A DNA stretch of 40,828 bases from Planctomycetaceae bacterium (GTDB taxonomy: Bacteria > Planctomycetota > Phycisphaerae > Phycisphaerales > SM1A02). Where the stretch lies: contig CANLHK010000018.1 of assembly GCA_947490615.1 (NCBI GenBank), positions 1-40,828 of the forward strand. The letters are read 5' to 3'. The translations under genes were made by a program, and so were the position numbers. The notes under the pieces were generated by a model. That model searched no databases. It had not been told where the DNA came from and saw only the letters and a program-made list of their open reading frames with translations. This document shows, one piece after another, positions 3,597 to 24,070 of the stretch (within the stretch, counting starts at the first letter, position 1; the number at the start of each line of letters is the position of its first letter).

Positions 3597-6434
3597 TTAG
3601 CCCCAGTCGCCAAGGAGCAACGCGAGGTCGGCAGCCGTCACCGTGCCGTCACCGTTGATGTCGCTCGCTCCGCCGCTCGCTCCCCAGCTTCCAAGGAGAA
3701 GCGCGAGGTCGGTCGCATTGACGGAGCCGTCGCCATTGATGTCGGCAGCGCGAGCCTCACAGGCGTCAGGGATGCCGTTGTGGTTGGTGTCCGCAGCGCC
3801 CGCTTGGATTTCGCAGGGATCTGCGATGCCGTCCGAGTCGCAATCTTGGAACTGGGTCTGGCTTGCGACGCTCACGAGGTGATAGTTGCCACCTGCGACT
3901 TGGAACGGGCTCCCGAGATTCGCGGGGAGCGTTGCCTCACCGTGCTCGTTCATGCCCCAGACGCGGACCGAGCCATCGGTCAGGAGCGCGACGGTCACGA
4001 AGCCGCACGCGAAGACTTGCTGCACGGGACCGAGTCCCGCGGGAACCGTCGATTGTCCGAGGGAATTGTCGCCCCAACAGACGATGGTCGCGTTGGACTT
4101 GCGTGCGGCCGAGTGCGCGCCGCCGCTTGAAATCGCCACGACTCCCGTGAGTCCTGCGGGCGGAGTGTTCTGACCGTAGTTGTTCTGTCCCCAACCAATC
4201 ACTGTTCCGTTGCTCCTGAGCGCGAGCGTGTTGACGAGACCTGCGGAGATTCCCGTGACGCCCGTCAGATCAGTCGGCACCGTCGATTGCCCAAGGATGT
4301 CCGCGCCCCAGCAGACCACGAGTCCATTGCTCTTGAGCGCGACCGAGTGGGTGTTGCCCGCGGCGATGGCCGTCGCGATGCCGAGAGTCACTGGTGTGGA
4401 GCTCTGCCCATTGGTGTTGAGTCCCCAACAGATGACCGAACCGTTGGTGGTGAGAGCCATCGAGTGCGATCCACCGCCAGCCACCGCGATCACACCGTTC
4501 AATCCGGCAGGGACCGTCGCTTGGCCGTAGGTGTCCTGTCCCCACGCGACGACCGAGCCCGTCGATCGAACCGCCAAGGAGTGCATGCCGCCCGCGCCGA
4601 CCGCCTTGATCGAGCCGAGATTCGCTGGAACCGTGGATTGCCCGTAGTTCGGATGACCTGTGCTTCCAACCGTACCAGCTCCCCACGCGACAACAGGGGT
4701 GGTGACTTGGCAGGAGTCGGGCACTCCGTTCGCATCGCAATCAACAGCACCGCTGGCGATGGCGCACGAGTTGAGGATTCCGTCGCCGTTGCAATCGAGC
4801 GTCGGGTTGCCAGCGATTTCGGAGGCGTCGTTGGTGCCGTTGCCGTTGCAGTCGTAGAAGTTCGCCTGAGTGATGATGTAGGGGAGGTCACCGATCTGGA
4901 TCGTGAAGTTGCGCGCTTGCGGCGAGCTGTTAGACGCCACGGTGTACGCAAACGAACCGTTGCCCGAAGCGGGTCCTGGATTGGTCAGAGTGATCCACGA
5001 GGGAACCGACAGTGGAGTCCACGCGCAACCCGTCGCAATCGTGGTCACGGTGACGGTCGCGCTGCCGCCGCTGGCGCTGTAACTCGCCGCGGGTGACGAG
5101 ATCGTCATCACGCACGCTGGATTCGAGGAGCAGACGACATTCGGCGCGCAGGAGGTACTCGCGAGGTAGTTCACAATCGCGGTCGCACAGGTCGGGTGGA
5201 AGGCCAAGACGAAGTTCGCCATGCCGCCGCTGCACTGGTGGCAGTAGCTCATGAGCGTTCCGTTGGAGATGCAGACTTGTGAGGTCTGGCAGCTTCCGAA
5301 CGATCCCGACGGCGCGCAACGGTCGAGCGGTGGACAGAAGTCATGGGTGTGCGCGCTGCCCGCGTTGTGGCCGAGCTCGTGCGAGAAGACCATGATGTCC
5401 CAGTTCTGGCCGTTGTTGTTGGCCAGCGGAGTTGGGAAGCTGCCCGAGAGATTCGCCGAGACCGCGTAGCCGAAATCGGTGCAGATCGCGTTGAGCCACG
5501 CGATACCGCCGCCAAGCGAACGAGCGCTGAGCAAGTGGGCCACATCGCGCGAGACGCCCGCCATGTTGGACTGCCAATAGGCGCGGAATTCAGGCAATTG
5601 CGCGCTGGTCGAGGCGCCCGACCATGGATCGGTGGCGGCCCAGAAGCGGCTGTAAGAGATGCGCAATTGCACGGAAGCGTCGCGGCGATAGACCTCGTCT
5701 GCGCCCGCAACGAGGGTCTGCACATAGCCCAGCGCCGCGGCGGTGTCGCCACCAAAGCGATTGAGGAACTCTTGGTCGGTGTCGATGGCGATATCGACCG
5801 CGCGGCAATTCACGAGGAAGGACGAGCCCTCTTGGGGTGGGGCGCCTTCGCCGTCACCGATGGACTCGCCGTCGGGGATGATCAGTTCCTCACACTCAAA
5901 CGGCGTCCAAGCGATTTCGCCAAACGCGGCGCTTGAGACATCAAACACCGCGGGCGCGTGCGGATCGGTGAAGGGACCAGAGCTCACGACATAGTGCGCG
6001 TCGGACTCATCGAGCCCAGCATCGATCCAACCGAACACACCAGTGCCGGTGACGGAGAGGAACACGCGCGAGCCAGGCACGCCGAGGATTTCGCCTCCGA
6101 AGAAGTGGGTCTCAGGCTGTGCGACAGGAATCTCGCGACCAAACTTGTCGATCACGACGAAGCGGGTCTCCGTCGCGCGCGGATTGATGCGGTGCACCAG
6201 GAGATCAACCGACTGCTTCGCAGCGATCGGGAAGGAGGCAATGAGCGTTTCACCCTCGGCAGGCATCGCGCGCAGCGACTCTTGATCGATCGCGAGCGCC
6301 TGTCCGCCCGTCACAAAGACCGCCGCATCAAAGTCACGCGTGAAGGGCTCGAACACCGGGACCGCGGACTGCGCGAGCGCGGGACCTGCGGAAAGGAGAA
6401 GCACACTCAGCGTCGAGCGCAAGTTGGCAGCCAT
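3597..6434 (-). CDS. Secreted metzincin-type metalloprotease with RCC1 blades and C-terminal dockerin
   Basis: 945 residues with a signal peptide ending ALA-QS near residue 22. Zinc-protease signature HELGHNAGSAHTH lies at 352-364, followed by a Met-turn-like LMSYC at 394-398. Together these match reprolysin/M12B-like metzincins, with Glu353 as the predicted general base. Residues about 435-525 resemble a BACON-type Ig domain (CAWTPLSVPSWITLTN). Two DCNGNG-type calcium stretches come next, then six RCC1-type blades with a 39-residue period (about 580-846). The protein ends in a type-I dockerin (about 886-945) with two loops, DINGDGSVNATDLALLLGSW and DINGDGTVTAADLALLLGDW. GAGG lies about 7 nt before the ATG. 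Likely an exported protease attached to a partner through the dockerin. Substrate unknown. Confidence 0.9.
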   Translation of the reverse strand: MAANLRSTLSVLLLSAGPALAQSAVPVFEPFTRDFDAAVFVTGGQALAIDQESLRAMPAEGETLIASFPIAAKQSVDLLVHRINPRATETRFVVIDKFGREIPVAQPETHFFGGEILGVPGSRVFLSVTGTGVFGWIDAGLDESDAHYVVSSGPFTDPHAPAVFDVSSAAFGEIAWTPFECEELIIPDGESIGDGEGAPPQEGSSFLVNCRAVDIAIDTDQEFLNRFGGDTAAALGYVQTLVAGADEVYRRDASVQLRISYSRFWAATDPWSGASTSAQLPEFRAYWQSNMAGVSRDVAHLLSARSLGGGIAWLNAICTDFGYAVSANLSGSFPTPLANNNGQNWDIMVFSHELGHNAGSAHTHDFCPPLDRCAPSGSFGSCQTSQVCISNGTLMSYCHQCSGGMANFVLAFHPTCATAIVNYLASTSCAPNVVCSSNPACVMTISSPAASYSASGGSATVTVTTIATGCAWTPLSVPSWITLTNPGPASGNGSFAYTVASNSSPQARNFTIQIGDLPYIITQANFYDCNGNGTNDASEIAGNPTLDCNGDGILNSCAIASGAVDCDANGVPDSCQVTTPVVAWGAGTVGSTGHPNYGQSTVPANLGSIKAVGAGGMHSLAVRSTGSVVAWGQDTYGQATVPAGLNGVIAVAGGGSHSMALTTNGSVICWGLNTNGQSSTPVTLGIATAIAAGNTHSVALKSNGLVVCWGADILGQSTVPTDLTGVTGISAGLVNTLALRSNGTVIGWGQNNYGQNTPPAGLTGVVAISSGGAHSAARKSNATIVCWGDNSLGQSTVPAGLGPVQQVFACGFVTVALLTDGSVRVWGMNEHGEATLPANLGSPFQVAGGNYHLVSVASQTQFQDCDSDGIADPCEIQAGAADTNHNGIPDACEARAADINGDGSVNATDLALLLGSWGASGGASDINGDGTVTAADLALLLGDWG

Positions 6435-13860: not shown

Positions 13861-14226
13861 TCAAGGGTCGCGCGGGTCCGGCGGTTTGCTCACTTGGGCG
13901 CGTTCGGCCTCTTCAACGATGGCGATCAAGAGTTCGACCGAGCCACGCTGTTCGAGAAACTCTGCAAAGCGCTTGAGCGCGACGGGGTCGGCCAGCGTCG
14001 AGGCGAGCGGCGTAAAGAAGTGCAGCGCCGCGGAGCCCAGCACATTGAGCGGGCGTGACATCTCAAGGAAAGTGAGTGCTGGTCCCGTCAAGCGTCGCCG
14101 CGCGAGTTCTGCGGCGAGCTTCTCAAGCATCGCGCGATCTTCGGCTGAAGGCGTGCATCGAGCCGCATCGTTCAGTGCGAAGGCATTACGAAACTGTGCG
14201 CGCCAGGAACGCAGACGAGAAGCCAT
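13861..14226 (-). CDS. Small hypothetical protein
   Basis: 121 residues, no signal peptide. Charged N-terminus (SRLRSWRAQFRNAFAL), a helix-rich middle, then PALTFLEMSRPLNVLGSAAL and a predicted amphipathic C-terminal half ending in a Glu-rich LLIAIVEEAE helix. The hydrophobic stretch LNVLGSAALHFFTPLASTLA could associate with a membrane. I recall similar short proteins in planctomycetes but no function. It is probably the first gene of a two-gene unit with the zinc-ribbon membrane protein. It starts 39 bp from the divergent formylglycine-generating enzyme. Confidence 0.7.
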   Translation of the reverse strand: MASRLRSWRAQFRNAFALNDAARCTPSAEDRAMLEKLAAELARRRLTGPALTFLEMSRPLNVLGSAALHFFTPLASTLADPVALKRFAEFLEQRGSVELLIAIVEEAERAQVSKPPDPRDP

Positions 14227-14265: not shown

Positions 14266-15342
14266 ATGAGCCTTGTTGCCGTTGCGATTCTTGTTGCTGC
14301 GTTCGCTCCGCCCACAATCGTTGCGCCGAGCGGCATGCAGTGGATTCCAGCGGGCGAGTTTGTGATGGGCTCCACCGATTCGCTCGCGCGGCCCGACGAG
14401 GCGCCGAAACACCGCGTGCGCGTCGATGGCTTCTGGATGGACACGACCGAAGTCACCAACGCGCAGTTCCGCGCCTTCGTGGAAGCGACGGGATACAAGA
14501 CCGTCGCGGAGCGTCCCGTCGATTGGGAGGAACTCAAGAAGCAAGTGCCAGAAGGAACGCCCAAGCCAGCCGACGATGTGCTGGTTCCTGGGTCACTCGT
14601 CTTCACGCCACCGCGCGCCGATGCTCCTGCGGGTGATCACTTTGATTGGTGGGCGTGGACACCTGGCGCCAACTGGCGTCATCCACAGGGCCCCGCGAGT
14701 TCGATCGAAGGGAAGGACTTGCTTCCCGTCGTGCAAGTCGCGCATGAAGACGCGCTGGCGTATTGCGTCTGGGCCAAGAAGCGACTTCCGACCGAGGCCG
14801 AGTGGGAATTCGCGGCGCGCGGAGGACTCGCGGAGAAGAAGAACTCGTGGGGCGACGAACCAGTCGATGCGAAACGCTGCAACACTTGGCAAGGCGCGTT
14901 TCCTCGCACCAACAGCAAAGACGACGGCTTTGAGCGCGCAGCGCCCGTCAAGAGTTTTCCTGCCAACGGCTACGGTCTCTTCGACATGGCAGGCAATGTG
15001 TGGGAGTGGTGTGCCGATCTCTACGCCCCCGACGCCTACGCCCAACGCCTCGAGGGACACAGCGCTGACGCAGCGTTTGTGGCGGTGAATCCGCGCGGGC
15101 CAACGAAGTCCAACGATCCGCGCAATCCTCATGCACCAGAGAGTCGAGTACATCGCGGCGGATCGTTTCTCTGCAACGACAGCTACTGCGCGAGCTACCG
15201 ACCAAGCGCGCGCATGGCCGCGCCACCCGACACGGGCTTGGAGCATCTTGGGTTTCGTTGCGCCAAAGATGGCGCGAAGGACGGCGCGAAGGACGGCGTG
15301 ACTCCAGCGGCGGTCGAGCCATCGCGACTTCCATCGCAGTGA
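14266..15342 (+). CDS. Formylglycine-generating enzyme (sulfatase-modifying factor family)
   Basis: 358 residues. FGE family: FVMGS (32-36), DTTEVTNAQFRAFV (59-72), LPTEAEWEFAARGG (174-187), GNVWEWC (243-249), GGSFLCNDSYCASYRPSAR (298-316) and HLGFRCA (327-333). The pair C303/C308 in the LCNDSYC context matches the copper-binding catalytic cysteines of true FGE (MCHRSYC in the human enzyme). Many family members lack this pair. It should therefore convert a sulfatase cysteine to formylglycine. The first 20 or so residues are hydrophobic and signal-like. If ATG 14335 were used instead, that segment would be absent; neither start has a clear Shine-Dalgarno. Three 12-bp repeats encode AKDGAKDGAKDG near the C-terminus. 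No sulfatase gene is in the window. Confidence 0.88.
   Translation: MSLVAVAILVAAFAPPTIVAPSGMQWIPAGEFVMGSTDSLARPDEAPKHRVRVDGFWMDTTEVTNAQFRAFVEATGYKTVAERPVDWEELKKQVPEGTPKPADDVLVPGSLVFTPPRADAPAGDHFDWWAWTPGANWRHPQGPASSIEGKDLLPVVQVAHEDALAYCVWAKKRLPTEAEWEFAARGGLAEKKNSWGDEPVDAKRCNTWQGAFPRTNSKDDGFERAAPVKSFPANGYGLFDMAGNVWEWCADLYAPDAYAQRLEGHSADAAFVAVNPRGPTKSNDPRNPHAPESRVHRGGSFLCNDSYCASYRPSARMAAPPDTGLEHLGFRCAKDGAKDGAKDGVTPAAVEPSRLPSQ
15262..15297. repeat. 12-bp tandem repeat, three copies
   Basis: gccaaagatggc, gcgaaggacggc, gcgaaggacggc. The last two copies are identical. In frame it encodes AKDG three times just after the conserved end of the FGE domain, so changes in copy number would only lengthen or shorten the tail. 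Confidence 0.85.
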
Positions 15343-15361: not shown

Positions 15362-17233
15362 ATGAGTTCGCCAGCGCACGCGGTTCCGTCCATGCTCGAA
15401 GTCTCCAAGCTGCGATACATCCTCGCGACCGACTGTGGTTCTACGACGACGAAGGCCATTCTTGTGGAGCGACGCGGCGAAGGCTCGGCTGCCGACGCGG
15501 GTTCCTGGCGTCAGACCCAGCGCGCCGAAGCGCCCACGACTGTGGAAGAACCGTTTGCGGATGTGACCATCGGCGTGTCCAACGCGCTGACGGAGATCGG
15601 TGAACTCGCGGGTCGACGCTTCATCGCCGACGATGGCACGATCATTCGTCGCAGCCACGAAGGTGATCCCAACGGCTGCGATCTCTACATCTCGACCTCG
15701 AGTGCGGGCGGCGGATTGCAGATGGTCGTCGCAGGTGTCGTCGCGCAGATGACCGCCGCGAGCGCCAAACGCGCCGCGCTTGGTGCGGGCGCGATCGTGA
15801 TGGACACCATTGCTGCCAACGACAAACGAAAGCCGCACGAGCGCATCCAGCGCATTCGCGAGTTGCGGCCTGACATGGTGTTGATTTCGGGCGGAACCGA
15901 TGGTGGCAATGTGCAGCAGGTCGTGCAGATCGCTGAGCAGATCGCGCCCGCCAAGCCGCGCCCGCGCTTTGGTGGCGAGTACGAGTTGCCCGTGATCTTT
16001 GCGGGAAACGCCGATGCTGCACCGCAGGTCCGCGCCATCTTTGGTGCGCGTGGAGAGAAGGGCTTTGACCTTGCGGTCGTCCAGAATCTCCGCCCCACGC
16101 TCGAGCAGGAGAACCTCGGGCCCGCGCGCGACAAGATCCACGATGTGTTCCTTGAACATGTCATGGCCCACGCGCCGGGCTACGACCGACTCATGTCATG
16201 GAGCGACGCGCCGATCATGCCCACGCCAGGTGCGGTTGGCGACATCCTCCAACGCATCGCGGCGCGCGACGGGCTCAACGCGGTCTGCGTCGACATCGGC
16301 GGCGCGACCACCGATGTCTTCAGCGTGTTTGGCGGCGTCTTCAATCGCACCGTGAGCGCCAACCTTGGCATGAGTTACTCCATCTCGAATGTTTGCGCCG
16401 AAGCGGGCATGGAGAATGTGCTGCGCTGGGTGCCCATCGAGATGGATGAGCGCGAGCTGCGCAATCGCGTCAAGAACAAGATGATCCGTCCGACGACGAT
16501 TCCGCAGACCGCAGAAGCGCTGGTGTTTGAGCAAGCGGTGGCGCGCGAGGCGCTGCGGTTGGCCTATGTGCAACACAAGGAGTTCGCGACCACGCTCAAG
16601 GGCGTGCAGCAGCAGCGCACGGTTGGTGATCTCTTCTCGCAGCAAGCGAGCGGACAGTCGATCGTCAACGACATGACGCTCGATCTCCTCGTGGCCTCAG
16701 GTGGTGTGCTCAGCCACGCGCCGCGCGTCGAGCAGACCGCGTCGATGCTCATCGATAGTTTCGAGCCGCAGGGATTCACGCAACTCGCCAAAGACTCCAT
16801 CTTCATGATGCCGCACCTCGGTGTGCTGGCGAGCGTGCACGCGCCCGCGGCGATGGAGGTCTTCGAACGCGACTGCCTCGTGCGTTTGGGATGGTGCGTC
16901 GCTGCGACCTCCGCAGCGGGAACGGCGTCGAGGCACTGGGGCAAAAAGTGCTTTACCTACCGCGTGTCGGGCGCAGTCTCTGCGTCCGGCGAACTGACCT
17001 GTGGTGAAGTCGCCCTCGTGCGTGTTGGCATCGACCAAGAGGTCGAGGTCGTCGTCGAGCCGACCAAAGAGTTCGATCTTGGCGCGGGCTTCGGGAAGTC
17101 GGTGGTCCGCCGACTCAAGGGTGGGAGCGCGGGGATCTTCTTCGATGCGCGCGGTCGCCCGCTCATGCTTCCTGAGAAAGAGGCGGATCGCAAAGCAGCC
17201 GTCGCGCGATGGGATGCGGTGTGGAGCACATGA
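15362..17233 (+). CDS. MutL/GlmL-family ASKHA ATPase
   Basis: 623 residues. Matches the family annotated as MutL or glutamate mutase accessory protein GlmL (unrelated to the mismatch-repair MutL). Actin-fold motifs: TDCGSTTTKAILVE (23-36, phosphate 1), STSSAGGGLQMVV (111-123), ISGGTDGGN (175-183), VDIGGATTDVFSVFGG (310-325, phosphate 2) and ASGGVLSHAPR (445-455). Classical GlmL is thought to act as a chaperone or reactivase for B12-dependent glutamate mutase, but no mutase gene is here. Instead it heads five co-oriented genes, mostly for membrane proteins. It begins 19 bp after the FGE stop. ATG 15392 is an alternative start nearer the conserved domain; neither has a good Shine-Dalgarno. Predicted cytoplasmic energiser of this operon. 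Confidence 0.85.
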   Translation: MSSPAHAVPSMLEVSKLRYILATDCGSTTTKAILVERRGEGSAADAGSWRQTQRAEAPTTVEEPFADVTIGVSNALTEIGELAGRRFIADDGTIIRRSHEGDPNGCDLYISTSSAGGGLQMVVAGVVAQMTAASAKRAALGAGAIVMDTIAANDKRKPHERIQRIRELRPDMVLISGGTDGGNVQQVVQIAEQIAPAKPRPRFGGEYELPVIFAGNADAAPQVRAIFGARGEKGFDLAVVQNLRPTLEQENLGPARDKIHDVFLEHVMAHAPGYDRLMSWSDAPIMPTPGAVGDILQRIAARDGLNAVCVDIGGATTDVFSVFGGVFNRTVSANLGMSYSISNVCAEAGMENVLRWVPIEMDERELRNRVKNKMIRPTTIPQTAEALVFEQAVAREALRLAYVQHKEFATTLKGVQQQRTVGDLFSQQASGQSIVNDMTLDLLVASGGVLSHAPRVEQTASMLIDSFEPQGFTQLAKDSIFMMPHLGVLASVHAPAAMEVFERDCLVRLGWCVAATSAAGTASRHWGKKCFTYRVSGAVSASGELTCGEVALVRVGIDQEVEVVVEPTKEFDLGAGFGKSVVRRLKGGSAGIFFDARGRPLMLPEKEADRKAAVARWDAVWST

Positions 17234-17253
17234 CTCTTTGTTAGGGTGCGCGA

Positions 17254-18381
17254 ATGGCGAAGGCTTACACGCCCGGACTCAAGGTTGCTGCGTGCACGAT
17301 GTTTCGCGCGCGGCGATTACTTCCCGTGCACGGTGAGGTGTTGGTCAAGGTCGGCGACCTCGTCAAGGCGCGCGATGTCATCGCGCGCACCTTCATCGAT
17401 GGCGATGTGACGCCTGTCGCGATTGCCTCGCAGCTCTCAGCGCCCGCGAGCGATGTCGCAGAACTCATGCTCGTGAAAGAAGGCGATGCGGTGGTGGCAG
17501 GGCAACCCATCGCGCGCTCGAAGGGGATCTTCGGCTTTGGAAAGCGTGAAGTCGTGTCGCCGAGCGCGGGTGTCATCGAATCGATCAGCGCGACAACAGG
17601 GCAGGTCATGCTCCGCGGCGCGCCTGTGGCCGTCGAGGTGCTTGCCTACATCGATGGACGCGTGACCGAGGTCTTTGCGGGTGAGGGCGCGCTGATTGAA
17701 ACCGACGCCGTGTTTGTGCAAGGGATCTTTGGTGTCGGCGGCGAGACGGTTGGACTACTGCGCATGGCCTGTGCGCGTCCCGATGCGCTCCTTGATGCCA
17801 CGCAGATCACTCCGTCCTTGAAAGGTTGCGTGGTCGTCGGTGGCGCGCGCGTGACGGCCGCTGCAGTGCGCGCCGCGCAAGCGGTGGGTGTTGCAGCGAT
17901 CGTCGCAGGCGGCATCGATGATGCGGACTTGAAGGCGATCCTTGGCTACGACCTCGGTGTGGCGATCACAGGAACTGAGCGACTCGGCTTGTCGATCGTC
18001 GTGACCGAAGGATTTGGCGACATCGCGATGGCCGAGCGCACTTTCGCGCTGTTGAAGAGTTTCGAAGGACGCGAGGCGAGCGTCAACGGCGCGACGCAAA
18101 TCCGCGCGGGTGTGACGAGACCCGAGATCGTCATCGCGCGGAGCGCTGGCGATGTCGCACCCGCACTCGCAGCGCCACGCGAGGCGGGATTGTTGGAGAT
18201 CGGAACGCCCGTGCGGCTTATTCGCGATCCGTACTTTGGCATGCTTGGAAATGTCACGGCCCTCCCGAGCGAGCCTGCGGTGCTGGGTTCAGGCTCGAAG
18301 GCACGCGTGTTGGAAGTCGCGTGCGCCAACGGCACGCGTGTCACAGTGCCGCGCGCGAACATCGAGTTGATCGAGACCTGA
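17254..18381 (+). CDS. Barrel-sandwich / KOW-like protein of the MutL operon
   Basis: 375 residues, no signal peptide. The N-terminal half has repeated lipoyl-like or RnfC-like barrel-sandwich elements: HGEVLVKVGDLVKARDVIAR (26-45), VKEGDAVVAGQPIARSKG (74-91) and SPSAGVIESISATTGQV (102-118). The lysine-bearing DKM-type lipoylation motif is absent. The middle (191-295) looks like an alpha/beta domain: GCVVVGGARVTAAAVRAA, then AAIVAGGI. The C-terminus (about 318-375) resembles a NusG-type KOW domain: PVRLIRDPYFGMLGNVTALP and VPRANIELIE. I know no function for this architecture. It starts 20 bp after the MutL-like gene, with AGGG before the ATG, and probably links the ATPase to the membrane proteins. 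That role is inference. Confidence 0.8.
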   Translation: MAKAYTPGLKVAACTMFRARRLLPVHGEVLVKVGDLVKARDVIARTFIDGDVTPVAIASQLSAPASDVAELMLVKEGDAVVAGQPIARSKGIFGFGKREVVSPSAGVIESISATTGQVMLRGAPVAVEVLAYIDGRVTEVFAGEGALIETDAVFVQGIFGVGGETVGLLRMACARPDALLDATQITPSLKGCVVVGGARVTAAAVRAAQAVGVAAIVAGGIDDADLKAILGYDLGVAITGTERLGLSIVVTEGFGDIAMAERTFALLKSFEGREASVNGATQIRAGVTRPEIVIARSAGDVAPALAAPREAGLLEIGTPVRLIRDPYFGMLGNVTALPSEPAVLGSGSKARVLEVACANGTRVTVPRANIELIET

Positions 18382-18438
18382 TCGAGAGCGACGGGCGTCC
18401 GAGCGACGACTCGTCACGAGACAGAGGAGCACTTCACG

Positions 18439-19350
18439 ATGGATCGACCACACCTGACTTGTTTGCGCCGAACCAGTACGCGGCTGTTCGTTGCGGCGAC
18501 GCCGATCTTGTTGTTGGCCACGACCGTGACTGCGGCCGCCGAAGAACAGAGCGGATGGATCAACACCGCGCGCGTGCCGTTGCTCATCGCGCTGGTGCTC
18601 ATCTGCGGCGCTGTGATCGCGGGTATCGCCATCGCGCGCACAGGGCGCCCGCTGCACATTCGAAAGCTTGCAGCGCTTGACGCGGTGGAAGAGGCGATCG
18701 GTCGTGCTACCGAGATGGGTCGCTCGGTGCTCTTTGTTCCGGGCATCCAGGACATGACCGACATCCAGACTGTCGCCGGTGTCACCGTGCTTGGACGCGT
18801 GGCCAAGATCGCAGCCGAGTACGACGCGCGTCTTGAAGTGCCGACGGCGCGCTCCATCGTCATGGCTGCCGCGCGCGAAACCGTGCGCGCAGCGCACTAC
18901 TCAGCGGGACGACCTGAGAGCTACAACGAAGCGAACATCTACTACATCACCGATGAGCAGTTTGGCTATGTCGCGGCGGTGACGGGCAAGATGGTGCGCG
19001 AGAAGCCCGCTGCGTGTTTCTACATGGGAGCGTTCTACGCCGAGAGTCTGCTCTTCGCGGAGAACGGCAACTCCATCGGTGCCATTCAGATTGCAGGGAC
19101 CGCAGAGCCTTCGCAGTTGCCGTTCTTCGTCGCGGCCTGCGACTACACCTTGATCGGTGAGGAGTTCTTCGCGGCAAGCGCGTACCTCTCGGGTGAACGC
19201 GACCAACTCGGCTCCGTGAAGGGGCAGGACTTTGGCAAGCTTCTCATTACTGCGGCGATCCTCATCGGCTGCGCGCTGGCGACCGCGGCCGTCTTCATGC
19301 CGTCACTCACCGACGCTGCGTCCACCTTCAAGGCCATTCTCGGAGGCTGA
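18439..19350 (+). CDS. DUF6754-like membrane protein
   Basis: 303 residues. N-terminal signal or anchor (about 15-33), a second hydrophobic helix (46-66), a soluble domain of about 200 residues (70-265), and a C-terminal helix (268-287). The soluble domain has GRSVLFVPGIQDMTDIQTVA (94-113), VPTARSIVMAAARE (134-147), YYITDEQFGYVAAVTG (168-183) and ACFYMGAFYAESLLFAENG (192-210). This resembles the family I recall as DUF6754. No enzymatic motif is obvious. GAGGAG lies about 10 nt before the ATG. It is only 3 bp from the next gene. Probably a bitopic subunit of a membrane complex with the other products of this operon. Confidence 0.78.
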   Translation: MDRPHLTCLRRTSTRLFVAATPILLLATTVTAAAEEQSGWINTARVPLLIALVLICGAVIAGIAIARTGRPLHIRKLAALDAVEEAIGRATEMGRSVLFVPGIQDMTDIQTVAGVTVLGRVAKIAAEYDARLEVPTARSIVMAAARETVRAAHYSAGRPESYNEANIYYITDEQFGYVAAVTGKMVREKPAACFYMGAFYAESLLFAENGNSIGAIQIAGTAEPSQLPFFVAACDYTLIGEEFFAASAYLSGERDQLGSVKGQDFGKLLITAAILIGCALATAAVFMPSLTDAASTFKAILGG

Positions 19351-19353
19351 TCC

Positions 19354-20055
19354 ATGCTGCAGCGAACCGTCCCCATGGCCATCCTCAGTCTGTCAGGGTT
19401 GATCCTGATGCTCGCCTACTTCTCGCCGATGACGACGAGTTGGGGCGAGACTGTGCTTGACTGGTTCAACATCCTCGCAGCCGTCGCCTTCGTGCTCGGT
19501 GCGGGCAATCTGCTTGCGGTGAACCTTGAGAAGATCTCTTCGCGACGCGCGGGTTGGGCCTACGCAGCGATCACGCTGATCGCGTTCTTCCTGATGCTCG
19601 GCTTTGGACTGCTCAAAGTTGGTGCAGTGCCCAACGCGGAGCATCCGACGGTCGCCTTCGCGGGCGGCTACGAAACGGCGGCCTCACCGTTTGGTTGGAC
19701 CTACGAGTACATCTTCTCGCCGCTCACGGCCACGATGTTCGCGATGCTGGCGTTCTATGTCGCAAGCGCTGCGTTCCGCGCGTTTCGCGCCAAGAACATC
19801 GAGTCGATCCTTCTGCTCGGCACCGCGTTCATCATCCTGCTCGCGCAAACCGCGGCGGGCATGTTCCTCACGGGTTGGATTCCTGAGGAGAGCGCGTTTG
19901 CCTTCCTGCGCCTCGACTGGATGAAGGTCGCCATCACTGAGCACATTCAAACCGCGGGCATGCGCGCGATCACCATCGGGATCGCGCTCGGCGTCGTGGC
20001 AACGAGTCTCCGACTCATTCTCGGTATCGATAAGAGCTACCTGTCCAAGAGCTGA
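19354..20055 (+). CDS. Six-TM membrane protein of the MutL operon
   Basis: 233 residues with about six membrane helices (6-24, 36-56, 67-88, 121-142, 150-170, 203-223). The longest loop (about 90-120) holds GAVPNAEHPTVAFAGGYETA. There are few charged residues within helices, apart from a Lys/Glu pair near 191-196. I do not recognise a family. GGAGG ends 8 nt before the ATG, inside the end of the DUF6754-like gene, so translation is probably coupled. It is likely a channel-like or scaffold subunit of the same complex. Confidence 0.78.
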   Translation: MLQRTVPMAILSLSGLILMLAYFSPMTTSWGETVLDWFNILAAVAFVLGAGNLLAVNLEKISSRRAGWAYAAITLIAFFLMLGFGLLKVGAVPNAEHPTVAFAGGYETAASPFGWTYEYIFSPLTATMFAMLAFYVASAAFRAFRAKNIESILLLGTAFIILLAQTAAGMFLTGWIPEESAFAFLRLDWMKVAITEHIQTAGMRAITIGIALGVVATSLRLILGIDKSYLSKS

Positions 20056-20067
20056 GCAGAGCAACAC

Positions 20068-21009
20068 ATGAACACGACTTCCAACAACAGTCACGGTCAT
20101 GGCCAACGCGGAGGCGGCGGAGGTATCGTCTCCATGCTCGCGCGGCTCGGTGGCATCGATCGGCGCTGGATCTTTCTGGCGATGGGTCTTTCCATCGCCG
20201 TGCCGATCTTGCTCAAGCTGCGCTTTCCTGAAGTGCCTGGTCCGATGGCCAAGGCGACCTTCAACGCGATCGAGTCGGTTCCTGAAGGCTCGCGCGTGCT
20301 GTTGTCCTTTGACTACGACCCAGGCAGCGCGGGCGAGTTGCAGCCGATGGCCAACGCGATCGTGCACCACTGCGCCGCGCGCGGGCACAAGATCGTGTTC
20401 ATGGCGCTCTGGCCGTTGGGTAAGCAGATGGCCGAGGGGACGATCAAGGATGTCCTGTTGGAGTTCCACCCGACCTACACCTACGGGAAGGACTATGTGC
20501 AGCTCGGCTACAAGGCGGGCAACGAGGCGGTCGTCAAGTTGATGGCGACCAATGTCCCGCAGCAGTACTCGACCGATGCAGCGGGCGCGGCACTCGCCAG
20601 CCTTCCGATCGTGGCCGATCTCGCCAAGCTCGCCGACTTCAAACTCATCGCGAGTTTGTCGGCGGGCTATCCGGGCGCCAAGGAATGGGTGCAGTACGCC
20701 AACAGCGCTGATCCCGAAGCGTTCAAGGTGATCTCGGGTTCGACAGGTGTGCAGGTGAGCCAACTGCTTCCGTACTACCCCGCCCAGATGGAAGGCATGT
20801 TGGTCGCGGTGAAGGGCGCTGCGGAGTACGAGATGCTTGTCACGGCGAAGTACCCATCGAGCGAGAAGCCAGCGCTGCTCGCTGAGCGACTCGGCCAAGG
20901 CCGCGTGCGCATGGGACCGCAGTTGGTCGCGCATCTCTTGATGATCGGGCTGATCATCCTTGGCAATGTCGCCATGGTCGCGGGTCGCGCGCGCGGAGGT
21001 GCACGATGA
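20068..21009 (+). CDS. Bitopic membrane protein of the MutL operon
   Basis: 313 residues. A Gly/His/Asn-rich N-terminus (HGHGQRGGGGG) comes first, then a membrane helix at 34-51. A soluble domain of about 230 residues follows: SRVLLSFDYDPGSAGELQPM (75-94), GHKIVFMALWPLG (106-118) and YGKDYVQLGYKAGNEAVV (139-156). A second helix is at 286-305. The first part, a Rossmann-like strand after EGSRVLLSFDYDP, resembles an alpha/beta domain, but I see no known catalytic motif. It lies 12 bp after the upstream gene and its TGA overlaps the next ATG (ATGA at 21006-21009). Confidence 0.78.
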   Translation: MNTTSNNSHGHGQRGGGGGIVSMLARLGGIDRRWIFLAMGLSIAVPILLKLRFPEVPGPMAKATFNAIESVPEGSRVLLSFDYDPGSAGELQPMANAIVHHCAARGHKIVFMALWPLGKQMAEGTIKDVLLEFHPTYTYGKDYVQLGYKAGNEAVVKLMATNVPQQYSTDAAGAALASLPIVADLAKLADFKLIASLSAGYPGAKEWVQYANSADPEAFKVISGSTGVQVSQLLPYYPAQMEGMLVAVKGAAEYEMLVTAKYPSSEKPALLAERLGQGRVRMGPQLVAHLLMIGLIILGNVAMVAGRARGGAR

Positions 21010-22001
21010 ATCCTCACCAGAAGAGCCACGAGCAGACGAGTTCCTTGCCTCCGTCGGCGACACCGTCGGCGCCACCGTCGGCGACACCCGCGGCGACACC
21101 GTCCGCGCCGACACCCGCGCGGCCGAACCACCGCTTCCTCTGGATTTCGCTCTCGGTCCTCGGCGCCTCGCTCACCGTTCTCGGGACGGCAATGGCAGCG
21201 CAACAGCAAGGCACCGATGTCGCCTTGGCAACCGTCGCGCTCTCGAAGTCGATCGGCACCTGGTGCGCAGCGCTGCTGACGATTGGCATCCTCACCTTTC
21301 TGTACAGGGACAACCCGTTCTACAAGGTGTGCGAAAGCATCCTCATCGGAGTGTCGGCCGCCTACTGGATGGTGAACGGCTTCTGGTCGACGCTGGTCCC
21401 CAATCTGTTCGGCAAGCTCATGCCCGGAGTGGTGCGCGATGTCGCGATCCCGTCGCTTCCTGTGTCGGCGACACCGGGCTTCGACATGGCACTTGCGTTC
21501 GTCCCGCTCCTCCTTGGACTGATGCTCCTGTGGCGGCTCTCCCCCAAGGGCGGTTGGATCTCGGTGTGGCCACTGGCGTTCATCATCGGAACGACAGCGG
21601 GCATTCGGCTCGTTGCCTCGATTGAAGCGGATCTCCTCGCGCAGGCGTCGGCGACGATTCGTCCGTTGGTCGTCTTCAAGGAGACGGTCCTTGTGGGCGG
21701 CATCGGCGCAGGCAGTACGACGACCTCTGACCCATCTGTGGCGATGGCAGCGTCGGTGCAGGCGCTCGACTTCTGGGGAACCGTTGGTGCTGTGACTGGT
21801 GTCGTGGGTGTTCTCTCAGTGCTCACCTACTTCTTCTTCTCACTTGAGCACAAGGGTGCGGTTGGAAAGTCCGCGCGCCTTGGCGTCTGGTTCTTGATGA
21901 TCACCTTCGGCTCTGCATTTGGACTCACCGTGATGGGACGCATCACGCTCCTCGCGCAACGGCTGGAGTTCCTGTTCAAGGACTGGATGGGAATCAGCTG
22001 A
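21006..22001 (+). CDS. Polytopic membrane protein, last gene of the MutL operon
   Basis: 331 residues. An N-terminal 40-residue Pro/Ser/Ala/Thr-rich segment is encoded by a 12-bp tandem repeat. About seven membrane helices follow (44-64, 82-100, 109-129, 159-176, 183-203, 256-279, 292-312). A conserved-looking loop, YRDNPFYKVCESILIGVSAA (100-119), lies between helices 2 and 3. GGAGGT sits 6 nt before the ATG, and the gene overlaps its upstream neighbour by 4 bp, so coupled translation is likely. Family not recognised. Another frame through the repeat also stays open, but lacks hydrophobic helices beyond it. Confidence 0.8.
   Translation: MNPHQKSHEQTSSLPPSATPSAPPSATPAATPSAPTPARPNHRFLWISLSVLGASLTVLGTAMAAQQQGTDVALATVALSKSIGTWCAALLTIGILTFLYRDNPFYKVCESILIGVSAAYWMVNGFWSTLVPNLFGKLMPGVVRDVAIPSLPVSATPGFDMALAFVPLLLGLMLLWRLSPKGGWISVWPLAFIIGTTAGIRLVASIEADLLAQASATIRPLVVFKETVLVGGIGAGSTTTSDPSVAMAASVQALDFWGTVGAVTGVVGVLSVLTYFFFSLEHKGAVGKSARLGVWFLMITFGSAFGLTVMGRITLLAQRLEFLFKDWMGIS
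21051..21110. repeat. 12-bp imperfect tandem repeat, five copies
   Basis: Units ccgtcggcgaca, ccgtcggcgcca, ccgtcggcgaca, cccgcggcgaca and ccgtccgcgccg. In frame they encode PSAT/PSAP-type tetrapeptides in the N-terminal tail of the last MutL-operon protein. Slippage would add or remove four residues without a frameshift. Confidence 0.8.
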
Positions 22002-22330: not shown

Positions 22331-22993
22331 TCAGCGGCGCCGTCGTGCAACACAACTGGCGAGTGCGATCAACGCGAGCGCGCCTGGCGCAGGGACTGCG
22401 TTCCCCGCGATGGTGAGGTTGTCGAAGCGGATGCTGCCCGTTGATCCCGTGGCGCCATCGACCACGATCCGCAGCGCCGCAAAGTCAGTCCCCATGAAAT
22501 CCGCAGGGTTGAGCTTGAGGGTCACGAGTTCCCACGCGGTCGTGTTCGAGGCGAAGTCGAGCACGGAGGTCCAGCCCAGTCCGTTCCAATACTCGAGGCG
22601 ATTGGCCGAGGCACCCGTCGACGAGCGCCGCGTCGCGAAGCTCACCACCAGATCGGTGTATCCCGTGGTCTCGAAATCCAGGCGCAGCGCAGTTCCGTTG
22701 GACACCGTGCCGATCGCAGCCAAGGCGTCCCCGGCGAGCTCCCCCGTTTGCCCGCCGAGCGTTGTTCCTTGCAGCACCGACGCTCCCGCGCCGATGGACG
22801 CGAAATCCAGCGTTCCAGTGCCAGTCGTCGCGGCGTAGGACATTCCTGCAGCGGGGTCAATCCCGTTCAGATTCCATGCCGCCACGATGGAGCCGTGCGC
22901 CGACGCAGCGGCCAACCCCATGACGATGACTCCCGTTCCGACGGCCCTCGCCGTCGCGTGCCCTTGGGGCAGACCGATATCGCAATGAGACAT
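22331..22993 (-). CDS. PEP-CTERM-like exported protein
   Basis: 220 residues. A signal-like N-terminus with hydrophobic core GTGVIVMGLAAASAHGS (19-35), then a beta-rich body: AAWNLNG, and TALRLDFETTGYTDLVVSFA. The tail is VPAPGALALIALA followed by ARRRR. That is the VPxPG / hydrophobic / Arg-cluster form of a PEP-CTERM sorting signal, normally cut and processed by an exosortase at the inner membrane. The body resembles a jelly-roll seen in many such proteins; ligand unknown. I chose ATG 22993 because a purine-rich AAGGAAAGGAAGAGAG lies directly before it. The open frame extends 13 codons further upstream. No exosortase gene is in the window. Confidence 0.85.
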   Translation of the reverse strand: MSHCDIGLPQGHATARAVGTGVIVMGLAAASAHGSIVAAWNLNGIDPAAGMSYAATTGTGTLDFASIGAGASVLQGTTLGGQTGELAGDALAAIGTVSNGTALRLDFETTGYTDLVVSFATRRSSTGASANRLEYWNGLGWTSVLDFASNTTAWELVTLKLNPADFMGTDFAALRIVVDGATGSTGSIRFDNLTIAGNAVPAPGALALIALASCVARRRR

Positions 22994-23359
22994 CTCTCTC
23001 TTCCTTTCCTTGCAATCCGAGCTTCGGTCCACGCTGCACGCAGGCTGCAGGCAAGAACCGAGACTTCAGAGTGCCGTGGGCTCTTGCCCGTGTGGGTGAG
23101 TGCTCCGCAGCGAACACCGCTGCGTTCAGCGAGCGCGAAGATACAGGCCGTGGCGCAGCCATCCGATGGCACTACACTTTTCCCTGCATGATTTTCACCG
23201 TTGCGCGAGAGAGTCCGTCGCGGGATGAAAGTCCTGCGAAACAGTTCGGAAGGAAGGCGCCCTTCGGCGTCGCGCCGGCAGCGTGAGACTTCTGCTCAGA
23301 TACGAGTCGACGCGAGTCGACGCGACAAGACTCAACTGGACACTGGAACACCCTCCGCC
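22994..23359. other. Divergent intergenic region, 366 bp
   Basis: It lies between the divergent starts of the PEP-CTERM-like gene and the GYF_2 gene. I see no supportable gene. Two tandem copies of the 10-mer cgagtcgacg occupy 23303-23322, each containing the palindrome gtcgac, 38 bp before the plus-strand ATG. They could be a regulator site. Confidence 0.45.
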
Positions 23360-24070
23360 ATGACGACTCACGACAACAACTGGTACTGGTCGCAAGGTGG
23401 TGCCACACTCGGCCCAGTCGATTTGCAGGAGATCAATCGCTTGGTGGCGGCCAACTCCATCACGCGTGAGACCTGGCTGTTCGATCCAGCGCAGGGCGCG
23501 TGGGTGGCGGCGGAATCGGTCGCAGGCCTTTTTCTTGCGGCGGGTTCAGCGGGCGCGGCAGCAGCGGTCCCTCCGTGCGCGCCGCCAGATTCGGCGCAGA
23601 CGACCGCTTCCTCACTCGTGTATTGCCGCTCCTGCGGCGCGTCGAACGATCAGTCCGCCGTGCGCTGCGTTTCGTGCGGATCCGCAGTGAGCGTCTCTGG
23701 CGGGATCGATCCGAAGGTCGCCGCGATCGTCTGCCGCGCCAGCGTGTTGGCGACACCGATGCTCTTAGCGATTCCCATCATCGGTCCGTTCATCGGACCC
23801 ACGATTGTCTGGGTCATCGGAGCGAAGGACCCACGCGTCGTCGCTGAAGCGAAGGAGACGATGAACTGTCTCATCACGCTCGCGATCGTGTTCGTGGCGG
23901 TCTGGCTCTTTGGCGCCCTCGGTCTGATCCTCATCTTCCCGACGGTGCTCGCTGCGATCGCGACAGCGGCCATGGCGATCTACTGCGTCGTGGTGGGAAT
24001 CCTCGGGCTCATCGCGGCGGCCGACGGAAAGCCGTATCGCTATCCAGGGATTCTGCGACTCATCAAGTAG
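23360..24070 (+). CDS. GYF_2 / zinc-ribbon / DUF4870-like membrane protein
   Basis: 236 residues. Residues 7-52 match a GYF_2-type domain: WYWSQGGATLGPVDLQEINR, then ITRETWLFDPAQGAWVAAE. A zinc ribbon follows (C89-C92 and C103-C106, CRSC / CVSC). A DUF4870-like membrane region with about three helices (133-155, 171-197, 199-221) ends in KPYRYPGILRLI. The chosen ATG is the first one directly before the GYF_2 domain; the longer open frame upstream is basic and low in family character. Likely a small inner-membrane protein with a protein-binding head. Its stop is 6 bp from the convergent pdxA stop. Confidence 0.85.
   Translation: MTTHDNNWYWSQGGATLGPVDLQEINRLVAANSITRETWLFDPAQGAWVAAESVAGLFLAAGSAGAAAAVPPCAPPDSAQTTASSLVYCRSCGASNDQSAVRCVSCGSAVSVSGGIDPKVAAIVCRASVLATPMLLAIPIIGPFIGPTIVWVIGAKDPRVVAEAKETMNCLITLAIVFVAVWLFGALGLILIFPTVLAAIATAAMAIYCVVVGILGLIAAADGKPYRYPGILRLIK

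Follow-up and report, generated by a model that had tools for sequence, protein, structure and literature searches.

We analysed a window of 40,828 nucleotides, the whole of a stretch of Planctomycetaceae bacterium DNA, for a group of membrane-associated genes and their neighbours. An ORF check of the window recovered six co-oriented plus-strand ORFs between positions 15362 and 22001, and these are listed below with the two genes that lie upstream of them.

Gene A, 13861..14226, minus strand: conserved protein of 121 aa with no known family; its own profile matches it in the window at 2.2e-39.
Sulfatase-modifying-factor-like gene, 14266-15342, plus strand: ends 19 bp upstream of gene 1.
Gene 1, 15362..17233, plus strand: 623-aa ASKHA ATPase of the MutL family, extended at its C-terminus past the Pfam domain.
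Gene 2, 17254..18381, plus strand: 375-aa protein, probably cytosolic, with a barrel-sandwich (biotinyl/RnfC-N-like) N-terminus.
Gene 3, 18439..19350, plus strand: DUF6754 protein (PF20539, 2e-118) with a signal-like segment, a membrane helix, an alpha/beta domain and a membrane helix.
Gene 4, 19354..20055, plus strand: 233-aa membrane protein of about 5 helices, without a family.
Gene 5, 20068..21009, plus strand: 313-aa protein without a family, with an alpha/beta domain, predicted periplasmic, between two membrane helices.
Gene 6, 21006..22001, plus strand: 331-aa membrane protein of about 5 helices, without a family.

Recomputing the spacing of genes 1 to 6 gave the values of an earlier note on this DNA, namely gaps of 20, 57, 3 and 12 bp followed by a 4-bp overlap between genes 5 and 6, and the third-codon-position G+C was 0.73-0.80 across the six genes. 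The same note had drawn the cluster as six genes; these stood, whereas the linked gene A and the sulfatase-modifying-factor-like gene had been overlooked. Gene A is divergent in the window and in many relatives immediately precedes gene 1; its own profile yielded 46 ORF matches in the window and the compared loci, and no Pfam match was found for it. The cluster should include one more gene at the least, gene A. Neither a promoter scan, with 0 sites versus 1.0 expected, nor a terminator scan, with 6 terminator-like sites versus 6.1 expected, was informative.

Gene order was compared among 99 loci chosen by the presence of gene 3 (DUF6754). With gaps of at most 300 bp, the run 1-6 was found in 30/99 loci, the run 3-4-5-6 in 79/99 and gene A followed by 1-6 in 20/99, and without a gap limit these counts rose to 35, 83 (run 3-6) and 24, respectively. 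Co-occurrence was determined in a sample of 199 genomes of the window's phylum, and this revealed that the gene families co-occur almost perfectly even where they are scattered on the chromosome, by Fisher tests that ignore kinship. Gene 3 was present in 50 of the 199 genomes, gene 5 in 51 (50 in common with gene 3), gene 6 in 49 (48 in common), gene 2 in 48 (45 in common), the gene 1 family above its cut-off in 53 (45 in common) and gene A in 50 (46 in common). The dispersal of homologues across genomes that the earlier note had named as refuting its reading was therefore not what we found, given the kept runs and this co-occurrence. Scattering does occur, for example in G024, where A, 1, 2-3, 5 and 6 lie far apart from one another, and in G194, and genes A, 1, 2, 3, 5 and 6 are nevertheless all found in both; in G122 and G088, A-1-2 are separate from 3-6 (L131 and L133). 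Furthermore, genes 1 and 2 are fused in four Neomarinimicrobiota loci (L057, L058, L069 and L086), and genes 5 and 6 are fused in L111. An accidental neighbourhood of genes with no common function could draw on genomes such as G024, but it is already contradicted by the order kept across phyla, by the co-occurrence despite scatter and by the fusions, and we consider its probability virtually nil.

The gene set is not always complete. At least one of genes 2, 3, 5 and 6 is present in 53 genomes, and 10 of these miss one or more of the set 1, 2, 3, 5 and 6: G037 (95% complete, 8% contaminated), G050 and G145 carry genes 3, 5 and 6 without 1 or 2, G153 (99% complete) carries A, 1 and 2 without 3, 5 and 6, and the others are G014, G041, G053, G067, G099 and G182. 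Genes A, 1, 2, 3, 5 and 6 are absent from the sampled relatives in the window's order (8 genomes) and class (a further 4), except for one faint MutL match below the cut-off, and the system is thus dispensable in close relatives. At the level of gene content and order, these data showed that A-1-2 form one conserved unit and 3-4-5-6 another, and that both occur together.

The two units also differ in copy number. At least two complete 3-6 quartets were present in 17/99 loci, and all four quartet genes chose the same partner quartet in 384 of 672 quartet-versus-locus comparisons, where 56.6 were expected at random. The four membrane genes duplicate together and the ATPase genes usually stay single; as a rule, one ATPase unit is found with up to three membrane quartets. 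As judged from these partner choices, the four membrane genes were shown to be inherited and duplicated as a block. An origin of genes 3 and 5, or of genes 4 and 6, as ancient duplicates of each other found no support, the probabilities in a profile comparison being 2.1 and 1.4%, respectively.

Next, we examined the family membership of gene 1, which is single copy in the genome of the window. Residues 20-505 matched the Pfam MutL family PF13941 with 418.8 bits (cut-off 27; 3.3e-125), and the protein carries the ATP-site motifs DCGSTTTK and DIGGATTD, which are intact in 57/59 and 58/59 gene 1 proteins of the system type. Against the NCBIfam models, in contrast, gene 1 scored below both the GlmL equivalog cut-off (222 versus 475) and the GlmL subfamily cut-off (159.7 versus 204.05), as did the system gene 1 proteins of L033, L057, L080 and L095. 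The equivalog cut-off is strict, as the mutase-linked protein of L148, a partial one, scored 430.5 and so fell below 475, and passed the subfamily cut-off with 341.5; another mutase-linked protein, that of L149, missed the subfamily cut-off too (57.1). In G197, three MutL proteins scored above the subfamily cut-off (273-339), and PF06368 was not found in that genome. Compared with GlmL/MutL (NF040745, TIGR01319 and PF13941), gene 1 thus shares the broad MutL family and both ATP-site motifs, but it misses the two GlmL cut-offs, is longer by its C-terminal extension, occupies its own tree branch, occurs without glutamate mutase and is joined to gene 2 and membrane genes by fusion or linkage. On these scores and this tree position, gene 1 is a member of a separate MutL-family branch and not a GlmL; of the term "GlmL-type" in the earlier note, only the broad family assignment holds. 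A phmmer search of PDB sequences yielded no relative for gene 1, and the neighbours of a second MutL subfamily offered no functional clue.

MutL/GlmL is described, in passages of one paper, as a chaperone reactivating glutamate mutase (PMC4682846), and gene 1 might accordingly reactivate glutamate mutase or another B12 mutase, with the membrane genes as bystanders. A GlmL would be expected to have a glutamate mutase as its client, usually encoded next to it. We searched for the glutamate mutase E and methylmalonyl-CoA mutase families. Glutamate mutase E (PF06368) was above its cut-off in none of the 50 gene 3 genomes of the phylum sample and in none of 38 named genomes, which gave 4 weak matches below the cut-off and contained MutL in all 38 cases; in the genome of the window, PF06368 had no match. 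The absence of a mutase noted earlier at this locus thus extends, for glutamate mutase E, to these genomes, and a role of the gene 1 ATPase as glutamate mutase reactivase was rejected. By contrast, G010, G040 and G098, which do have glutamate mutase E above the cut-off, have a MutL match or a fragment of one immediately adjacent to it, and DUF6754 is absent from them. The genome of the window holds a methylmalonyl-CoA mutase homologue elsewhere, away from the cluster, as well as four B12-binding domain matches, three of them above the cut-off, which would favour another B12 client. However, methylmalonyl-CoA mutase, present in 145/199 genomes, had no match in 19/50 gene 3 genomes, and its presence in 34/53 MutL genomes amounted to no association (Fisher p 0.11), so methylmalonyl-CoA mutase was rejected as a client as well. 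Overall, a B12 mutase reactivase with bystander membrane genes appears highly improbable.

Gene 2 matched Biotin_lipoyl above the Pfam cut-off (1.3e-07), whereas RnfC_N (21.9 bits, cut-off 25.6) and NQRA_N (18.7 bits, cut-off 25) remained below theirs. At E <= 0.1, RnfC_N was matched by 25/41 members of the gene 2 alignment, NQRA_N by 11/41 and KOW by 11/41, the window's own protein not being among the last. The earlier description of gene 2 as a barrel-sandwich/KOW protein is thus upheld for the N-terminus, and its KOW part applies to the C-terminus of some relatives but not to the window protein. Further weak matches (E >= 0.15), including the SPT5 KOW domain and RNA polymerase beta', are expected shapes and show nothing more. 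The barrel-sandwich N-terminus is also found in RnfC and NqrA of ion-pumping oxidoreductases; gene 2, however, matches in its N-terminal part only, the window protein does so below the cut-offs, and Pfam and NCBIfam scans detected no further Rnf/Nqr subunits among the cluster's six proteins.

A crude hydropathy count gave 0, 1, 3, 5, 2 and 5 segments for genes 1 to 6, respectively, the one segment of gene 2 being absent from most of its relatives. Gene 3 proved to be a full member of DUF6754 (PF20539; 394.6 bits, cut-off 27), a family without a function in Pfam, and genes 4 to 6 matched no Pfam family, in agreement with the earlier account of a DUF6754 protein and three further membrane proteins. 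The first segment of gene 3 resembles a signal peptide, and in longer relatives a fibronectin type III-like domain precedes the first membrane helix. Around that helix, the mean number of K+R residues was 4.24 after versus 0.89 before, and around the first helix of gene 5 it was 2.59 before versus 1.33 after; the second helices of gene 3 (0.93 before, 0.71 after) and gene 5 (2.56 before, 3.79 after) say little on topology. From the sequences, the conserved alpha/beta domain of gene 3 is predicted to be cytosolic, with the FN3-type domain of longer relatives outside, that of gene 5 to be periplasmic, genes 4 and 6 to form the membrane core, and genes A, 1 and 2 to be cytosolic. Hydropathy and charge bias thus support the envelope part of the "ATP-driven envelope complex" proposed earlier; the ATP-driven part, suggested by the intact ATP-site motifs of gene 1, is putative.

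Searches with whole alignments of genes 4, 5 and 6 against Pfam and PDB sequences gave nothing usable, with no convincing Pfam or PDB match for gene 4 (alignment A5) and no PDB match for gene 6 (alignment A6). The models of gene 3 (m97de7b7d6ad4, pLDDT 90.2) and gene 5 (m27f6dbe0cb7b, pLDDT 93.1) were compared with known folds. Gene 3 aligned best with Sir2 (1s7g_D; Z 12.0, rmsd 3.4, 140 aligned), and the same list contained phosphoglycerate kinase (2cun_A, Z 10.5), an RCK domain (2aej_A, Z 10.2), transhydrogenase domain III (2fsv_C; Z 9.9, rmsd 3.6, 140 aligned) and a CO dehydrogenase subunit (9c0r_C; Z 9.4, rmsd 3.2, 136 aligned). The best match of gene 5 was 1kjn_A (MT0777; Z 9.5, 139 aligned at rmsd 3.4). 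Behind it came many dehydrogenases with Z of about 8, a likeness that may reflect no more than a common arrangement. Foldseek returned no match at E <= 0.001 for gene 5 or gene 3 (best E 1.1e-02 for the latter). The Sir2, transhydrogenase and CO dehydrogenase alignments, together with densely placed conserved polar residues in gene 3, would suit a membrane enzyme with its own activase: an oxidoreductase or transferase made up of genes 3-6, with a nucleotide cofactor held in the gene 3 domain and with A-1-2 as reactivating unit. Yet Rossmann-like domains score widely, as phosphoglycerate kinase and RCK in this list illustrate, Foldseek did not second the alignments, and no redox cofactor site was identified. 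We consider a membrane enzyme of this kind doubtful.

The ratio of one ATPase unit to up to three quartets, the multi-helix genes 4 and 6 and the predicted periplasmic domain of gene 5 would also fit an ATP-powered transporter or exporter, with 4 and 6 as channel, 5 as periplasmic receptor or gate, 1 providing the power stroke and an ATPase unit shared as in ECF transporters. The latter have a shared energy-coupling module, and the combination of one cytosolic ATPase unit with several membrane units is an analogy to the present cluster. Their ATPase belongs to a superfamily other than that of gene 1, and Pfam and NCBIfam scans detected no sequence relation of the cluster proteins to them. Moreover, genes 4-6 of the window had no transporter family match in Pfam, those of relatives being stray weak matches in few members, and we know of no ASKHA ATPase that serves as a transport motor, which we count against a transporter. 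Such a function is conceivable but, in our judgement, unlikely.

It is nearly certain that the six neighbouring genes and the nearby seventh constitute a real, undescribed system that is widely inherited in bacteria, in which a putative cytosolic ATPase unit accompanies a four-part inner-membrane complex. Our preferred reading is a two-part envelope machine whose shared cytosolic ATPase unit would energise or maintain the trans-membrane complex, and to this we give slightly less than an even chance. In such a machine, the gene 1 ATPase would be held by gene 2, its fusion partner in one phylum, and would dock on the gene 3 domain in the cytosol, and its ATP cycle would load, reset or energise the membrane complex, by analogy with reactivase ATPases and their soluble clients. 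The complex could then hand a substrate to the gene 5 domain in the periplasm, or signal to it by a change of conformation, and one ATPase unit might serve several quartets. A bolder version holds that this is a new class, in which an ASKHA ATPase of the reactivase branch, rather than an ABC, AAA+ or rotary one, powers a four-subunit inner-membrane complex coupling the gene 3 cytosolic to the gene 5 periplasmic domain, with interchangeable quartets fed by one ATPase unit; this we regard as rather unlikely as it stands.

None of the papers covered by our searches named DUF6754, PF20539 or PF13941, and searches combining glutamate mutase with Zixibacteria or with Planctomycetes returned nothing pertinent by title and abstract; "mutase" and "MutL" are absent from the main text of a paper on essential genes of Planctopirus limnophila (PMC10632474). 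The system of six to eight genes, most of whose members lack a family name, is common to bacterial phyla, many of them known mainly from metagenomes. Were the ATPase to power or maintain this complex, it would be an ASKHA ATPase acting on a membrane machine, for which we know of no precedent. The results also correct an annotation: "glutamate mutase accessory protein" names given by the MutL family alone are probably misplaced in these genomes, where the proteins so named would belong to something else. Thalassoglobus neptunius KOR42 (L072) has the gene set, its genome G205 sharing the MutL place with the sampled G194, in which genes A, 2, 3, 5 and 6 are present, and the question is therefore testable in culture.

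The six co-oriented ORFs that the earlier note had claimed at 15362-22001 (+) were confirmed, with gaps of 20, 57, 3 and 12 bp followed by a 4-bp overlap. The window is an entire contig of a 3.26-Mb genome that is 96.9% complete and contains one gene 1 match. Of the seven genes considered in the window, four (A, 4, 5 and 6) matched no family in the Pfam scan, and gene 3 belongs to a family of unknown function. The genes are as follows.

Gene A, 13861-14226 (-): small conserved protein; L054 has it in the same minus-strand orientation, separated from gene 1 by 17 bp
14266-15342 (+): gene resembling a sulfatase-modifying factor (FGE-sulfatase, 1.3e-77); it separates gene A from gene 1 and lies 19 bp before the latter
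Gene 1, within 15362-22001 (+): MutL-family ATPase (PF13941 at 3.3e-125, Pfam); nearest named relative at locus L054 ("Phycisphaera sp."), 86% identity, which makes a planctomycete host probable
Gene 2, within 15362-22001 (+): N-terminus biotinyl/barrel-sandwich (Pfam)
Gene 3, within 15362-22001 (+): DUF6754 (2e-118, Pfam)
Genes 4-6, within 15362-22001 (+): membrane proteins

DUF6754 scored over the cut-off in 50 of 199 same-phylum genomes, across 25 family codes, and was absent from all 14 control genomes. A scan of named genomes yielded at least 575 DUF6754 relatives, and the 80 most similar to the window protein, representing 79 loci, were kept; their record titles, which may be wrong for metagenome bins, include planctomycetes, Zixibacteria, Neomarinimicrobiota, Gemmatimonadota, Acidobacteria, WOR-3, Stahlbacteria, Latescibacterota, Cloacimonadota, Coatesbacteria and further groups. 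Adding 20 stretches of the phylum sample brought the set to 99 loci, all picked via gene 3, in which the genes were mapped with profiles trained on the same loci. When gaps were limited to 300 bp, genes 1 to 6 formed a run in 30 of the 99 loci, genes 3 to 6 (the quartet) in 79 and genes 1-2 in 35; without a gap limit, where intervening genes are possible, the counts were 35, 83 and 41, respectively. Thus, the expectation that gene order is kept across phyla was borne out in these gene-3-selected loci. The outermost system gene lay less than 400 bp from the stretch end in 38 of the 99 loci, so that absence of a gene there proves nothing. The 30 loci with the complete run comprise planctomycetes plus records titled Zixibacteria (L080 and L107) and Gemmatimonadetes (L095). 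In Neomarinimicrobiota, genes 1 and 2 are one protein followed by genes 3-6 (L057, L058 and L069; in L086, a 6.8-kb gap separates genes 3 and 4), and genes 5 and 6 form a single ORF in L111. Rearranged orders were found in L049 (BA-3456-1-2, B being a two-helix protein of relatives), in L124, and in Zixibacteria with genes 2-1 divergent from the quartets.

MutL/GlmL is described in PMC4682846 as a chaperone for the reactivation of glutamate mutase. Among the 199 genomes, the glutamate mutase E family (PF06368) exceeded the cut-off in three (G010, G040 and G098) and gave matches below it in four more; a MutL match adjoins the mutase in G098 and G040, a fragment of MutL does so in G010, and DUF6754 is absent from all three. 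In 38 named genomes, chosen by hand among the 79 loci so as to be widely spread, MutL was over the cut-off in 38/38 versus 0/38 for PF06368, which gave four weak sub-cut-off matches. These counts, together with the DUF6754-free mutase genomes, ruled out a role for gene 1 as glutamate mutase reactivase and upheld the claim of the earlier note that the cluster comes with no such mutase. A tree built from 70 MutL proteins placed the 60 system or system-like members, among them the window protein, on one side of a branch with an SH-aLRT of 99, to be read with caution since this was a quick tree without bootstrap in which the GlmL rows form very long branches. The ATP-site motifs of the window protein, DCGSTTTK and DIGGATTD, were intact by pattern in 57/59 and 58/59 of the other system proteins. 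In genome G197, MutL proteins (L137, L138 and L139) pass the cut-off of the GlmL subfamily, and PF06368 has no match there; thus, GlmL relatives without a PF06368 mutase also exist outside the system, which speaks against a simple rule.

More distant MutL proteins, fused or paired with gene-2-like proteins, were found in four genomes (G011, G039, G124 and G169). A second, more distant MutL subfamily, fused to or paired with a gene-2-like protein, lies at L142 9391-12332, L143 2001-5017, L145 8275-10749 and L146 9310-11817; DUF6754 is absent from these stretches, and a Pfam scan of ten neighbours gave no functional clues.

The earlier note had described a six-gene unit; all six genes are present, but the unit is larger, as gene A, and gene B in relatives, are linked to it. 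Neighbor-ORF clustering recovered gene A in 37 loci including the window (median distance 18 bp; 46 ORF hits with its profile), and gene B, two helices with a weakly PH-like character, in 21 loci (22 ORF hits). Gene A lay upstream of gene 1, in the same direction and within 300 bp, in 32 of the 99 loci. Gene B, with weak bacterial PH similarity at L053 5232-5744, L073 5457-5897 and others, precedes gene A in many relatives; a profile search of the window did not find it. The sulfatase-modifying-factor-like gene had a single weak relative across the other loci and is therefore probably a local insertion, which may share a transcript with gene 1.

Across the 199 genomes, those shared with gene 3 (present in 50) numbered 50 of the 51 with gene 5, 48 of the 49 with gene 6, 45 of the 48 with gene 2, 45 of the 53 with MutL over the cut-off and 46 of the 50 with gene A; genes 1, 2, 3, 5 and 6 were all present in 43 (Fisher tests on this co-occurrence ignore kinship). 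Scattered homologues, which the earlier note had counted against the system, do not refute it, as the families co-occur; scattering is nevertheless real in G024 (one contig, 99% complete), with genes A, 2-3, 1, 6 and 5 located at 0.12, 0.29, 0.79, 2.30 and 3.53 Mb, respectively, yet all of these genes are present. In the planctomycete group represented by G024, G137 and G194, the gene set is fragmented and dispersed along the chromosome, which makes the group a natural test case for the break-up of operons. L072 (Thalassoglobus neptunius) belongs to G205, where the place of MutL is the same as in G194.

Among the 199 genomes, ten that have any of genes 2, 3, 5 and 6 miss at least one of genes 1, 2, 3, 5 and 6. 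Membrane genes were present and genes 1 and 2 absent in G037, G050 and G145; G153 (99% complete) has A-1-2 and no gene 3, 5 or 6; G053 (73% complete) has genes A and 1 plus a scrap of gene 2; G067 (72% complete) lacks gene 3; and one to three genes are missing from G014 (76% complete), G041 (83% complete), G099 and G182. Outside these ten, G073 (79% complete) has genes A and 1 alone. Genes A, 1, 2, 3, 5 and 6 were absent from eight same-order and four further same-class genomes (G127 gave a faint sub-cut-off MutL match), so the lineage of the window kept or gained a system that is absent from its sampled close relatives.

At L131 and L133 (G122 and G088, family code f48), A-1-2 occurs without the quartet, the genes of which lie elsewhere on the same contigs. 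At least two complete quartets, and at most three, were present in 17 of the 99 loci, for example in Zixibacteria, and usually a single set of genes 1 and 2 was in view; exceptions are L124 and L126, where the order is complex or genes 1 or 2 are present in several pieces, and G039, with two system-like gene 1 matches. When quartets were compared with other multi-quartet loci, all four genes chose the same partner in 384 of 672 comparisons, against a random expectation of 56.6, indicating that the quartet genes evolve as a unit. Sequence comparison thus showed A-1-2 and the quartet as units.

The positive-inside rule is the basis for reading topology from charge bias. In gene 3 (model pLDDT 90.2), the 15 residues after helix 1 held a mean of 4.24 K+R versus 0.89 before it, and the conserved domain is therefore predicted to be cytosolic; the helix 2 charges (0.93 and 0.71) were uninformative. 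In gene 5 (model pLDDT 93.1), the charge count falls from 2.59 to 1.33 across helix 1 and rises from 2.56 to 3.79 across helix 2, a pattern that indicates a periplasmic domain, though less sharply than in the gene 3 case. A predicted cytosolic A-1-2 unit would serve a membrane complex of four parts that faces both sides. The best-supported picture, though a tentative one, is that A-1-2 services or energises this complex; gene 1 or 2 may dock on gene 3, and we infer ATP use and a substrate. A straightforward transporter is a less likely reading of the same membrane system.

The closest structure to gene 3 was Sir2 (1s7g_D; Z 12.0, rmsd 3.4, 140 aligned), followed by phosphoglycerate kinase, RCK domains, transhydrogenase domain III and CO dehydrogenase subunits; Sir2, transhydrogenase domain III and the CO dehydrogenase subunit belong to one nucleotide-binding superfamily, which offers a lead for gene 3. 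Gene 3 is rich in polar residues with a conservation of at least 95%, including E92, E202, E208, Q217, C234, D235, E241, E242, D264 and K267, a density suggestive of a functional site. A membrane enzyme with an activase is slightly less probable still than a transporter, and servicing of the quartet complex by A-1-2 remains the preferred reading. For gene 5, the closest structure was 1kjn_A (Z 9.5, rmsd 3.4, 139 aligned); Foldseek on the gene 3 and gene 5 models never gave a best E of 0.001 or lower. Gene 3 ORFs exceeded 360 aa in 108 of 136 cases (starts not curated), and the additional N-terminal region of the profile aligns with fibronectin type III domains from solved structures; Pfam fn3 was matched individually by 9 of 68 members, and the window protein (303 aa) is without this part. 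In the literature searched, no paper names DUF6754, PF20539 or PF13941, and among the GlmL/MutL papers listed there, none describing such a cluster came up; an earlier description elsewhere is possible.

Right after gene 6, on the opposite strand, the gene at 22331-23032 (-) encodes a protein whose C-terminus weakly resembles PEP-CTERM (14.6 bits, below the 20.7 required), and the product of 23201-24070 (+) carries GYF_2 and DUF4870 domains together with a zinc-ribbon-like stretch that stays below its cut-off. The gene at 3597-6434 (-) encodes a protein of 945 aa in which a reprolysin-like metallopeptidase occurs together with RCC1 repeats and a dockerin domain.
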